64,000 bases of DNA from Syntrophus aciditrophicus SB (lineage in GTDB: Bacteria; Desulfobacterota; Syntrophia; Syntrophales; Syntrophaceae): positions 931,001-995,000 of the forward strand of contig NC_007759.1 of assembly GCF_000013405.1 (NCBI RefSeq). Direction: 5' to 3'. Shown piece by piece: positions 38,628 through 42,681 of this stretch. Positions within the stretch are counted from its first letter, which is position 1; each line of letters opens with the position of its first letter. Made by a program: the position numbers and the translations under genes. The notes below the pieces were generated by a model. That model searched no databases and had not been told where the DNA came from. It was given only the letters and a program-made list of their open reading frames with translations.

Positions 38628-39295
38628 TCTGTGTCCTCCTTTTTTTTAGAATGAATTGTAAATCCTTGCACTGAGTTTTGATTCGAAATATTGCCGCACC
38701 TTACTTTCGTTATATGAAACGTTGAACTCATTATAAATGCCATATTTTTCAAACAGTCCGTTGAAATATCCATGGCGTGAAGAGAATTTATACAATAGAT
38801 CTCGCTGGATTTCCATGCCGCGAATTGGATCGACTTCTGCTGCAAACCGCACTCAATTCCAAATGGATGTGCGTTTATCAAAGAAAATAACATCTTATTT
38901 TTTTCCATGTCTTTTTATCTCAGATCTTCACATGAATGTGAAATGTCGAAATCGGCATACAAGTCGGTTCAGGTTCTCTGTGGCGCATAATTAAACGAAA
39001 ACCACTGGAACAACGGACACCCCAAACGAATTGCATTCAAGAACGCCATCATGTTGCTGACAGTGAACCGTCAAGTCAGTCGGAATTATGTCGGAGAGGT
39101 TTGTCATGCAAGGCGGAGCGTCAGCTATCAATCAGAAGCAGCTCGGTTAATCTTTATGTGAGGTAAATCACATTTTTTCTTTCGAATCTTTGTGAAACAT
39201 ATCACTTTCGCTTTATTGATTGTTATCGGTACTGAGAATAAAGTGTCTCCTGAAAGATAGGTCTTTATATAGGCGTAGAAGTTGCCCCCAAAGAA
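38628..39295. other. Region upstream of adenine deaminase
   Basis: No solid gene. A 68-codon minus-strand frame at 38646-38852 (RGMEIQRDLLYKFSSRHGYFNGLFEKYG) reads like protein but starts with GTG right after a stop and may be a fragment. Two CRP/FNR-like palindromes lie at 39157-39206. Confidence 0.4.
39157..39206. promoter_or_regulatory. Pair of CRP/FNR-type palindromes, 34 bp apart (copy 1)
   Basis: TGTGAGGTAAATCACA (39157-39172) is a perfect match to the CRP consensus TGTGA-N6-TCACA. TGTGAAACATATCACT (39191-39206) follows with one changed base. They lie 90-140 bases before the small gene at 39296. Confidence 0.7.
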
Positions 39296-39541
39296 ATGCA
39301 TCGGTATAACTTTTCATTCCATGAGAACTGGGAACGGGTAAAAAAGAGCGGGATAATGGAAACATGCCTGAATGAAGGTCAAAAATGGAATTTGGATACT
39401 GATTATCTGAACCTCCAACAGAAGGATCTCGAAGAAAAGTTAAAAGGTGTTCCGCCGGAAGATGTACTGCTTGTTTTACTGGACGCCGGCAACGAAACAC
39501 TTCGGGAAATTGCCCGGAGCATCAGGTCCGTGTTCCGATAA
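39296..39541 (+). CDS. Small unknown protein
   Basis: 81 residues, mostly helical and acidic, with QQKDLEEKLKGVPPEDVLLVLLDAGNETLREIARSIRSVF. The start is unsure: 39296 has no clear ribosome binding site, and an ATG at 39356 is an alternative. It follows a pair of CRP-like sites. No family recognised. Confidence 0.45.
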   Translation: MHRYNFSFHENWERVKKSGIMETCLNEGQKWNLDTDYLNLQQKDLEEKLKGVPPEDVLLVLLDAGNETLREIARSIRSVFR

Positions 39542-40071
39542 ATCAAAGTATGCAGTTTGTCTGCAAAAGCCGAAATCAAGATCGGCAAAAGCTGATTGAT
39601 CAATAGGTGATCGGCTGTGCGGAATGCCATTTTGTTGAAGAGAGATGATTTTGTGGTTATTTGCCGCGACCTGTGGGGTGTTTAAAATAAATTTACACAA
39701 ATAGCTGTTTCACTGAAACATTTCCTCTTTTCTCACGTCAAGTATGTCCTGTCAGCAATTCTGACGATCCCCCATTAAATCCCAGCACAGCAAAAAGTAT
39801 CTATAAGTGAAACATATCACTGTTTAACTATTCAATATCAGTGATTTTTATCACTTTGCCCCTATTGAACATGATAACTGACTGGAATAGAATGATTGTT
39901 AAGAAGATTAATTTTTCTGTAAACGAAACAGAATTTATTCCTGAGGCCATGAAGGAAGAATGATCGATCCTGTTATGCTTTTCACTGCGACCAGCCGGAT
40001 GCTGCCCCCATGAAAGGCGTATCTTATTGATGTTCGGGGCGATTTTGACAGACATTACGGAGCACCAATAG
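39542..40071. other. Intergenic region before the GGDEF gene
   Basis: 530 bases without a supported gene. It contains the second pair of CRP-like palindromes (39806-39855); the remainder is AT-rich and likely promoter sequence for the cyclase. Confidence 0.4.
39806..39855. promoter_or_regulatory. Pair of CRP/FNR-type palindromes, 34 bp apart (copy 2)
   Basis: AGTGAAACATATCACT (39806-39821) and AGTGATTTTTATCACT (39840-39855) are both perfect 5+5 palindromes with a 6-base spacer. Start-to-start spacing is 34 bp, identical to the pair at 39157-39206. They lie about 215-265 bases upstream of the diguanylate cyclase gene. Confidence 0.68.
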
Positions 40072-40956
40072 ATGGAAAAAGAATCACGGGATATGCTGAC
40101 TTTCTTGAAGACCCTTATAGATGCCATTCCAAGTCCAATATTTTATCAGGATATCAGTGGCCTCTATCTGGGCTGCAACAGGGCGTTCGAGGAATTCCTC
40201 GGCCTCAAAAAGGAAAAGTTGGTTGGAAAGTCCGTCTATGACGTCTTTCCGAAAGATTTGGCTGAAAAATATTACACAATGGATTCGTTATTGGCTCATC
40301 AAGGGGGGCAACAGACATATGAAGATCAGATCATTGATGCCAACGGAAAAACGCACGATGTCATCTTCATCAAAGTTACCTACCTGAATACTGACGGCGT
40401 CCCCGCAGGGTTGGTTGGCGTCATGGTAGACATTACAGAACGAAAGCGGATGGAGGCGGAATTATTGTCAATGTCGCTCCGTGATCAGCTCACGGGAATA
40501 TATAACCGTCGGGGGTTCATCAATCTTGCGGAGCAGTGGATCAAGACGGCAAACAGAGCGAAACGTCAGATGCTGCTTTCCTTTATTGATGTTGATGATT
40601 TGAAAAAAATCAACGATACGCTGGGACATGAGGGAGGGGATAAGGCTCTGGTCGAGACGGCAAACATTCTCAGGCAGACGTTTCGGGAATCTGATATCGT
40701 TGCCCGCATAGGAGGTGATGAATTTGCTGTTCTGGTTCTCGATATGACAGACTTGAATCCTGAGATCCTGTCAAGACGCCTCCAGCATAACATTGATGAA
40801 TGGAACGCAAAAGTGTCGCGACAATACAAGCTCGCGATGAGTTGGGGCATGACCCTGTATGATCCTGAGTCTCCCATATCCCTGAACCAGCTGATGTCGC
40901 TATCGGACAAATTAATGTACGCCCGGAAAAAAGCCAAAATGAACAAAAGCATCTGA
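40072..40956 (+). CDS. PAS-GGDEF diguanylate cyclase
   Basis: 294 residues. A PAS domain (about 8-125: FLKTLIDAIPSPIFYQDISG, GVMVDITERKRMEAEL) is followed by a GGDEF domain (about 130-290). The active-site loop ARIGGDEFAVL is intact, and RESD five residues upstream of GGDEF is a product-inhibition I-site (RxxD). So it should make cyclic di-GMP from GTP and be feedback-limited. No membrane segment, so it is cytosolic. CRP-like sites upstream suggest control by a cyclic-nucleotide or redox regulator. Confidence 0.92.
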   Translation: MEKESRDMLTFLKTLIDAIPSPIFYQDISGLYLGCNRAFEEFLGLKKEKLVGKSVYDVFPKDLAEKYYTMDSLLAHQGGQQTYEDQIIDANGKTHDVIFIKVTYLNTDGVPAGLVGVMVDITERKRMEAELLSMSLRDQLTGIYNRRGFINLAEQWIKTANRAKRQMLLSFIDVDDLKKINDTLGHEGGDKALVETANILRQTFRESDIVARIGGDEFAVLVLDMTDLNPEILSRRLQHNIDEWNAKVSRQYKLAMSWGMTLYDPESPISLNQLMSLSDKLMYARKKAKMNKSI

Positions 40957-41226: not shown

Positions 41227-42681
41227 ATGCATCTACATTTTAAATCCGTTTTCCTTCATTCGATGATGCCTTTCCTTCGACGGTCCGGTAGATTAATACA
41301 TGCCGCACTCAACCAGGCAAAAGGAAGATTCCGTTCGGCAAGCCTGCGGTTTAAGATCGCCTTATTTGTTGTCCTCCTTTTGACCGCCACCTCCTTTATC
41401 CTGTGCATCACTACCGTAACCATCATGAACAATTACATATTGAACGAGATCACCAAACGGGGGGAATCGATAAGCAAGAGTATCGCTGCCTCCGCGGGCT
41501 ACAACTTTCTCTCGAAAGACATTTTAGGCATGGATAACCTCGTCTTCAAGGCCCAGTCTTCAAACAACGATGTGGAGTACGCCGCCATCGTTGCTCCCGA
41601 CGGCAAGGTGGTTGTTCACAGCGATCTGGCGATGCGTGGACAAACTTTACGAGATGATGAAGGTCGGTGGATCAGGTCGGGTGAGGAGGGGACAACCGTG
41701 AGAGACTTGACGAATTCTGCTGGCTCCATTTTCGAAATATCATGTCCAATCATTTTTATGAATAAAGTATTGGGGACAGTGCTGATCGGCATAAACAAAT
41801 CAGTATTCCAGGAAGCACAGGCACAGGTTTATCGCAGAATAGTAACTGTTTTCGGCATTGTTCTCGTATTCGGCGTTGTAGCCAGTACTTTTCTTGTATC
41901 TTTCTTGATCAAACCGATCCGGGAACTTTCAGCCGGGGTGGATGAGCTCAAACAGGGTATATCAAAAAAGCCTCTCAAAATTTACTCTCATGATGAGCTC
42001 GGAAAACTGACGGCAAATTTCAATGAGATGTCAAAGGTGATAGCGGACCAACAGGGTCAGATGAACCGATACACACGGGATCTTGAGAAGGCATACATAT
42101 CAATAGTCAAGGTAGCATCTGCAGCTATTGACGCCAGAGACTCGTATACCCGTGGACATTCGGACAGGGTCTCTGATTTTTCTCTTCTTATCGGAAGGAA
42201 AATCGGGCTGCCCGGGGAAGAACTTGAAAATCTGAGAGTAGCCTGCTTGTTTCATGATATAGGAAAAATCAAGACGCCCGACTCGATATTGCTCAAACCA
42301 GGCAAGCTAACCGCGTCAGAACACAAGGAGATGATGCGCCATCCCGATTATGGCGTAGCCATTCTGGATAAGGCCCCGACTCTTAGAAAGTACATTCCCG
42401 CCATCCGACATCACCATGAAAGGCATGATGGAAAAGGGTATCCCGATCGACTCCCGGGAGAGCATATTCCTCTCCTCGCGTCTATTATTGCAGTTGCTGA
42501 CACATTTGACGCGATGACCACAGACAGGCCATATCGGAAAGCGTTATCACACAAAGAGGCTTTACAGGAGATTATGCGGGTAGCCGGAACACAATTGCAC
42601 CCGGACCTGGTCGAAATATTTGTCGGAATCATGGAGAAAAGGGTGCGTGATACAGTGTGGTTTATCGGGAGGACCGGATGA
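41227..42681 (+). CDS. Membrane HAMP/HD-GYP phosphodiesterase
   Basis: 484 residues. Two membrane helices near 48-72 (IALFVVLLLTATSFILCITTV) and 203-226 (IVTVFGIVLVFGVVASTFLVSFLI) bracket a periplasmic sensor (NDVEYAAIVAPDGKVVVHSD). Then come a HAMP linker (KPIRELSAGVDELKQG) and an HD-GYP domain (about 300-475) with LFHDIGKIKTPDSI and HHHERHDGKGYPDRLPGE. HD-GYP enzymes hydrolyse cyclic di-GMP; all metal ligands and GYP are present. The stop overlaps the next lipoprotein gene by ATGA. With the GGDEF gene it makes a local c-di-GMP pair. Confidence 0.93.
   Translation: MHLHFKSVFLHSMMPFLRRSGRLIHAALNQAKGRFRSASLRFKIALFVVLLLTATSFILCITTVTIMNNYILNEITKRGESISKSIAASAGYNFLSKDILGMDNLVFKAQSSNNDVEYAAIVAPDGKVVVHSDLAMRGQTLRDDEGRWIRSGEEGTTVRDLTNSAGSIFEISCPIIFMNKVLGTVLIGINKSVFQEAQAQVYRRIVTVFGIVLVFGVVASTFLVSFLIKPIRELSAGVDELKQGISKKPLKIYSHDELGKLTANFNEMSKVIADQQGQMNRYTRDLEKAYISIVKVASAAIDARDSYTRGHSDRVSDFSLLIGRKIGLPGEELENLRVACLFHDIGKIKTPDSILLKPGKLTASEHKEMMRHPDYGVAILDKAPTLRKYIPAIRHHHERHDGKGYPDRLPGEHIPLLASIIAVADTFDAMTTDRPYRKALSHKEALQEIMRVAGTQLHPDLVEIFVGIMEKRVRDTVWFIGRTG

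Follow-up and report, generated by a model that had tools for sequence, protein, structure and literature searches.

Why do two control regions of Syntrophus aciditrophicus SB, each before a different kind of gene, carry a pair of palindromes at the same 34-bp spacing, and which protein would read them? Both regions lie in the 64-kb stretch of DNA that was analysed as a whole, here called the window (bases 931001-995000 of a single 3,179,300-base contig); features inside it are given in window positions and promoters by contig position and strand. The earlier note on this DNA had described two palindrome pairs with a common stretch, one before a small gene and one before a diguanylate cyclase, and all of this was borne out, with GTGA half-sites starting at 39158, 39192, 39807 and 39841 (34 bp start to start within each pair), GTGAAACATATCACT common to pair 1 and pair 2, an 81-codon ORF behind one pair and a PAS-GGDEF gene behind the other. 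In the first region, a predicted distal CRP-type site (GTGAGGTAAATCAC, 39158..39171, plus strand, inferred centre -86.5) and a predicted proximal one (GTGAAACATATCAC, 39192..39205, plus strand, inferred centre -52.5) are followed on the same strand by a -35 element TTGATT (39216..39221) exactly 10 nt past the proximal site, a -10 element TAAAGT (39239..39244) after a 17-bp spacer, and the ORF of 81 amino acids (39296..39541), which starts about 45 nt past the inferred +1. The second region, also on the plus strand, combines a predicted distal site GTGAAACATATCAC (39807..39820), a predicted proximal site GTGATTTTTATCAC (39841..39854), a -35 element TTGAAC inside CCCCTATTGAAC (39865..39870, 10 nt past the proximal site) and a -10 element TAGAAT (39888..39893, 17-bp spacer), and the first substantial ORF past it (40072..40956, plus strand) encodes the PAS-GGDEF protein, a diguanylate cyclase by domain.

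With the strict site defined as GTGA-N6-TCAC and the reversed pattern as control, the four strict sites of the window all belong to the two pairs, where 0.82 sites were expected, and none of 100 window shuffles contained four. The genome scan for the paired motif that the earlier note had proposed gave 71 strict sites against 8 for the control and 12 strict pairs 19-49 bp apart against 0, a number to be compared with the approximately 0.05 pairs that 71 scattered sites would give by arithmetic. Spacing was 34 bp in eight of the 12 pairs, 33 bp in one and 24 bp in three. One of these last three arises because the pair at 2428963 is accompanied by an additional, weaker site; in the 50-80 bp range the single strict pair is the outer pair of this already counted triple. 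Random pairs at varied spacing, which the earlier note had named as evidence against its interpretation, were looked for from 19 to 80 bp and were not seen, and its reading of the spacing as a defined protein arrangement is accepted here.

A sigma-70-type core promoter was found at a fixed distance downstream of the paired palindromes. The 11 distinct pairs had been collected irrespective of any promoter; on one strand all 11 have TTG exactly 10 nt past the proximal site, on the other strand none does, and the fixed distance is claimed from these 11 only, because the class lists given below were partly gathered with a TTGA-containing pattern. The best -10-like hexamer, with ties resolved toward the longer spacer, stood at 17 bp in seven pairs; one pair had it at 18 bp and three had it at 15 bp, two of the three carrying TAAGTT at 17 bp as well. 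Both consensus elements are imperfect (-35 TTGAAT, -10 TAAGAT). If a -10 element at 17 bp is numbered so that its final base is -7, which derives the start from the -10, the centre of the proximal site would fall at -52.5 and that of the distal site, depending on the class, at -86.5 or -76.5. Class A, built on the 34-bp plan, has ten members, namely the two of the window (970192+ and 970841+), 2171689+, 2428997+, 2457780+, 2140229-, 2140665-, 2456256-, a 33-bp member (2424112-) and one with a degenerate distal site (1061778-). Class B, spaced at 24 bp and so shorter by about one helical turn, leaves the promoter-proximal part unchanged and has five members (414015-, 1547351+, 410329+, 2522757+ and, with its distal site degenerate, 2210789+). 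Five further promoters (2460318-, 2449507-, 1677635+, 1497356- and 2337495+) have a proximal site and no good distal one, and these, together with the four of 11 pairs that depart from a 17-bp spacer, count against a tandem-site explanation. A sigma-54 promoter, whose element is GG-N10-GC, was considered and rejected, as this element occurred in none of the 15 class A and B promoters in the 66 nt past the proximal site. The idea that the window pairs are chance palindromes in AT-rich intergenic DNA, with which the chance-level count of relaxed single matches in the window agrees (9 with at most two mismatches, 6.0 expected), can practically be dismissed, being refuted by the strict-site and strict-pair excess, the fixed spacing and the fixed distance to the TTG of the -35.

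We assign a probability of roughly 0.72 to the reading that the pairs are activator regions of sigma-70-type promoters, each taking two CRP-family dimers that are probably cAMP-loaded; we infer the binding protein, activation rather than repression, the cAMP signal and the transcription start alike. Two dimers of either of the paralogues CRP1 and CRP2, described below, would sit side by side on each pair, the proximal one nearer to the promoter than the classical -61.5 by about one helical turn and the distal one near -86.5, or near -76.5 in the 24-bp class; the two would jointly recruit RNA polymerase to the imperfect promoter, and their helical relation would be kept in both classes, which differ by 10 bp (34 against 24). 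The predicted proximal centre near -52.5 would match neither -41.5 nor -61.5, which counts against a tandem-CRP explanation, and the distal site would be out of register with the classical series of CRP positions. Published work gives -61.5 and -41.5 as the classical positions and 22 bp as the length of a CRP site (PMC6301791). By arithmetic, the gap between two 22-bp footprints is about 12 bp in the 34-bp class and about 2 bp in the 24-bp class, so that only class A would leave room for an alpha-subunit domain between the dimers.

The nearest textbook counterparts are the class III (tandem-site) CRP-dependent promoters of E. coli, reportedly the subject of work by Joung in 1993 and Tebbutt in 2002. 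The resemblance consists of two sites of the form TGTGA-N6-TCACA upstream of an imperfect sigma-70 promoter and of a probable synergy of two dimers. Unlike the E. coli promoters, those of S. aciditrophicus have an inferred proximal centre at neither -61.5 nor -41.5, a spacing fixed at 34 or 24 bp across the promoter set, and a repeated 34-bp unit with CCnATTGAAT, and they are missing from the other genomes compared.

The repeated unit emerged from the conservation of class A. Over 11 rows, including 2337495+, information amounted to 1.37 bits per column in the proximal site, 1.46 in the -35 (a figure favoured by the fact that some rows were gathered by the TTGA pattern), 1.12 in the -10 and 0.91 in the distal site, against 0.47-0.83 in the linkers and spacer, 0.39 directly past the -10, 0.14 in the upstream flank and 0.13-0.21 from 70 nt downstream; 1497356- was left out of the conservation alignments, and three promoters of the class B alignment have no good distal site. 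Within promoters, the 20 bp past the distal site and the 20 bp past the proximal site agree at 10.3 of 20 positions against 5.8 when shuffled, in a test that omits 2337495+ for its poor distal site; the resemblance holds in register only and was reached in 0 of 5000 shuffles. Thus, class A looks like a 34-bp unit, including CCnATTGAAT, in two successive copies, the second of which holds the real -35.

Such an in-register likeness is also what a 34-bp duplication would leave, and the pairs could be a dispersed repeat that spread as DNA, either as a promoter module or with duplicated genes, the spacing then reflecting common descent without a selected arrangement. Indeed, 1061778- and 2140665- are 73% alike over 394 bp, the promoters 2171689+, 2456256- and 2457780+ precede paralogues, so some copies came by gene duplication, and many class A promoters match mutually over about 50-100 bp at 71-83% identity. 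We nevertheless hold this origin to be improbable as the whole explanation, given that the upstream flanks are random-like (27% mean identity) while both sites, the -35 and the -10 are 66-82% alike, that the two classes differ by 10 bp, near one turn, with the promoter-proximal part intact, and that the genes behind the 24-bp class are unrelated to one another. When the two control regions of the window were compared by BLAST, they gave no match to each other beyond their common stretch, and their likeness is confined to sites and promoter elements. The repeated control region that the earlier note had suspected stands in the form of membership of both regions in one dispersed promoter family. 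Separately, four class A promoters (970841+, 2140665-, 2171689+ and 1061778-) have alike leader sequences surrounding ACAGAATT some 30 nt past the inferred start.

The sign of control is not decided by geometry alone, and CRP-type proteins can repress. The sites might be repressor operators, with dimers at -52.5 and -86.5 blocking or looping the promoter until loss of ligand releases the genes; the proximal site does lie outside the classical activating positions, and at promoter 2428997+ the additional, weaker site (2429021-2429034) overlaps the -35. In both aligned classes, however, the sites end at least 10 nt upstream of the -35, and the imperfect TTGAAT and TAAGAT are as expected where an activator is needed, which makes repression quite unlikely in our view.

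The distribution of the architecture was narrow. A pattern joining site, CCC and TTGA had 35 matches in the genome of S. aciditrophicus against 2 for the control, and 3, 8 and 6 against 1, 1 and 2 in three same-genus genomes. Single TGTGA-N6-TCACA sites (at most one mismatch) numbered 76 against 15 control matches in the own genome, 37 against 7 in G001, 47 against 23 in G003 and 39 against 19 in G002; since these relatives are also rich in single sites, the paired promoter, not the site, is particular to the own genome. Strict pairs were found in six of the 41 genomes searched, and the six outside the own genome are spaced 23 bp in five cases and 32 bp in one. In G010, TTGACA lies 17 nt past the site at two pairs; G009 and G037 gave matches as well. 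In G016 (L060/L161) and G029 (L057/L163), members of the same order, a 23-bp pair precedes genes with pilin-type N-termini, judged by eye; these resemble the present promoters in having tandem GTGA-N6-TCAC sites before a TTGACA-type promoter, and one 24-bp promoter of S. aciditrophicus likewise has a pilin-like gene (N_methyl) as its second ORF, but their spacing is 23 bp and their -35 lies 19 nt past the proximal site, which places that site at about -61.5, the class I place. In the own genome (L099, G000:2386857-2386870) and at L102 and L103, a single GTGA-N6-TCAC stands between crp1 and a divergent pilin-like gene; this region is intact in three genus members (own, G001 and G003), and TTGACA follows the site, which faces the pilin-like gene, after 21, 22 and 21 nt, respectively. 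Compared with these seven promoters (G016, G029, the two pairs of G010 and the three crp1-region single sites), the 10-nt distance from site to -35 is 7-12 nt shorter.

A wider search for the 34-bp pair, with the first site narrowed to TATCAC, returned 13 stretches with one match each from 84,980 species genomes, where about 7 or 8 are expected by chance (arithmetic, even base composition), and 2 matches from viral contigs; TTGA stood 10 nt past a site in 0 of 30 readings, both ways, of these species-genome and viral matches, in collections that may leave out records very near the own genome. Phage records contained no similar DNA at the sensitivity used. The tandem promoter class is lineage-restricted, being absent from the genomes compared.

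As to the regulator, three proteins of the organism exceeded the cut-off of a CRP-type helix-turn-helix profile and a fourth match fell below it. CRP1 (G000:2387048, plus strand), with CRP domains over cut-off, and its paralogue CRP2 (L098, G000:2193768-2194442, minus strand) are 75% identical and share the recognition helix TRESINK, which presumably reads GTGA. On the tree they are sisters (support 98/95) that split after the G001 and G003 orthologues; this tree was built without L124, a wrong ORF at a contig end, and sister support is 99/95 with it. Judged by these sequences, the two are a duplication within the own lineage. CRP2 sits on the longer of the two branches (0.33, against 0.065 for CRP1). 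Its helix-turn-helix contains a proline at a position occupied by L, I or V in the other 23 readable rows, and its nucleotide pocket a threonine at a position that is proline in 22 rows and threonine also in L121. The CRP2 gene follows a dapF-like gene (by eye), and CRP2 may be changing function or decaying.

Furthermore, strict sites occur upstream of six of 24 CRP-subfamily members, CRP2 not among them, against a mean of 0.10 in mononucleotide shuffles, and a strict site stands 184-197 bp upstream of CRP1 and of its G001 and G003 orthologues. The best full-length match of CRP1 among solved regulators was PDB 3d0s, which we take to be M. tuberculosis CRP, with TRESINK aligned to SRETVNK, a helix type common to both; the top row of that search was a large parasite protein matched by cyclic-nucleotide domains only. 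The motif bound by M. tuberculosis CRP is like that of E. coli CRP, and 14 of the 191 M. tuberculosis sites held more than one copy of it; the sections consulted of the article reporting this mention no fixed-spacing pairs, a difference from the present promoters (PMC4117774). Taken together, CRP1 and CRP2 are the likely regulators of the paired sites.

In this context, the description of the palindromes as CRP/FNR-like holds for the CRP type, with GTGA half-sites, and not for the FNR type, whose half-site is TTGAT (TTGAT-N4-ATCAA in full). An FNR regulon was rejected, the half-sites in the aligned promoters being GTGA/TCAC with few exceptions and CRP1 and CRP2 being without the iron-sulphur cysteine set; electron-acceptor control of the FNR kind, which the earlier note had envisaged, is not supported because of these half-sites and the cysteine counts of CRP1 (none) and CRP2 (one). 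The regulator could instead be the third CRP/FNR-family protein (477145, plus strand), which passes the family cut-off, or some different protein, and the signal redox or something else. The promoter class is missing from same-genus genomes that have a CRP1 orthologue, so that CRP1 alone does not imply the class, and this favours such a regulator. The helix of the third protein, IPETLSR, on the other hand, has no arginine where CRP-type helices have RE and resembles that of FNR, with a presumable preference for TTGA half-sites; moreover, G001 and G003 also have CRP/FNR proteins similarly distant from CRP1 (29% matches), and GTGA-N6-TCAC lies upstream of crp1 in three genomes. A regulator other than CRP1 and CRP2 therefore appears unlikely.

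If CRP1 or CRP2 acts with cAMP, a source is needed, and a predicted one is present in the form of three class III cyclases (PF00211): a receiver-cyclase adjoining a histidine kinase (L154:5555-6559), a cyclase fused to an HD domain (L155:4301-6283) and a CHASE2-cyclase (L156:4263-6521). None was found by PF00211 in three same-genus genomes. As these relatives show the single-site excess without a PF00211 cyclase, another cyclase class or another ligand may serve there, and cAMP is uncertain here too. A high AMP-to-ATP ratio, 5.9, is given for S. aciditrophicus in PMC4992975, and a link between this ratio and cAMP is speculation.

The genes behind the promoters are varied. The 81-amino-acid window protein (39296-39541) had no Pfam match over cut-off and, although a resemblance had been suspected, gave no BLASTP alignment with a 123-amino-acid protein of another class A operon. 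The PAS-GGDEF gene is followed after 270 bp by a gene for a Cache-HAMP-HD-domain (HD-GYP-like) protein (window 41227-42681), and co-regulation of the two would put the making and breaking of c-di-GMP side by side. The other class A small proteins matched no Pfam family over cut-off among the families tested, and Pfam and PADLOC searches with the small downstream proteins gave nothing convincing, a PADLOC match to a CARF model (E 0.00097) covering residues 5-52 of a 96-amino-acid protein. Class A targets include three paralogues with an NYK/NYN start, from a family with four copies in the own genome, a single copy in two of the three same-genus genomes, and one marginal match only (E 0.0096) in the other 96 of 100 genomes. 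Members of this small-protein family (L144, L148, L149, L150, L145 and L146) have an NYK-YLK start and a conserved FVVIHHD-HG-IP end. Neither the fourth own copy (2424395-2424598, upstream of the 2424112 promoter) nor the G003 orthologue has such CRP-type sites upstream. Downstream of 1061778- (L097) lies a homologue of the 83-amino-acid gene behind 2140665-, within the same 394 bp of 73% likeness, with no frame of at least 45 codons at the expected place; it is perhaps a decaying copy. Class B promoters stand before genes for a PAS-containing sigma-54 activator, for a DnaJ protein with a Usp protein behind it, and for a HEAT-repeat protein with a glycosyltransferase behind it; the second ORF past 1547351+ encodes a protein with the pilin N_methyl motif, and a further protein behind 414015- is pilin-like by eye, Pfam giving nothing for it.

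A literature search, in itself no proof of absence, found no paper on CRP control in S. aciditrophicus. We read the family as cAMP-CRP tandem-site promoters, a familiar kind whose fixed geometry is here unusual, which probably let cAMP switch on lineage-specific small genes and signalling genes. A broader and more tentative reading, which we regard as doubtful though worth stating, is that a new second-messenger circuit arose within one lineage in a single evolutionary step: class III adenylate cyclases that same-genus genomes lack would have joined a duplicated CRP, one or both copies of which came to read a new composite operator, the 34-bp repeated unit (GTGA-N6-TCAC, N9, ATTGAAT); the proximal dimer at -52.5 would directly contact sigma region 4, the -35 mimic of the upstream unit would dock a second RNA polymerase contact, and copies of the module would have recruited small new genes and c-di-GMP enzymes, placing c-di-GMP turnover under cAMP. 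Since the CRP duplication, the cyclases and the new promoters coincide in one lineage, the birth of a regulatory circuit would be directly testable here. Moreover, fifteen natural promoters with one architecture and two spacings, together with relatives that have the classical position, offer a test of a CRP-type activator one helical turn closer than the textbook position. For the biology of what is probably a model syntrophic bacterium, these data predict a regulon together with the signal and the likely regulators behind it.
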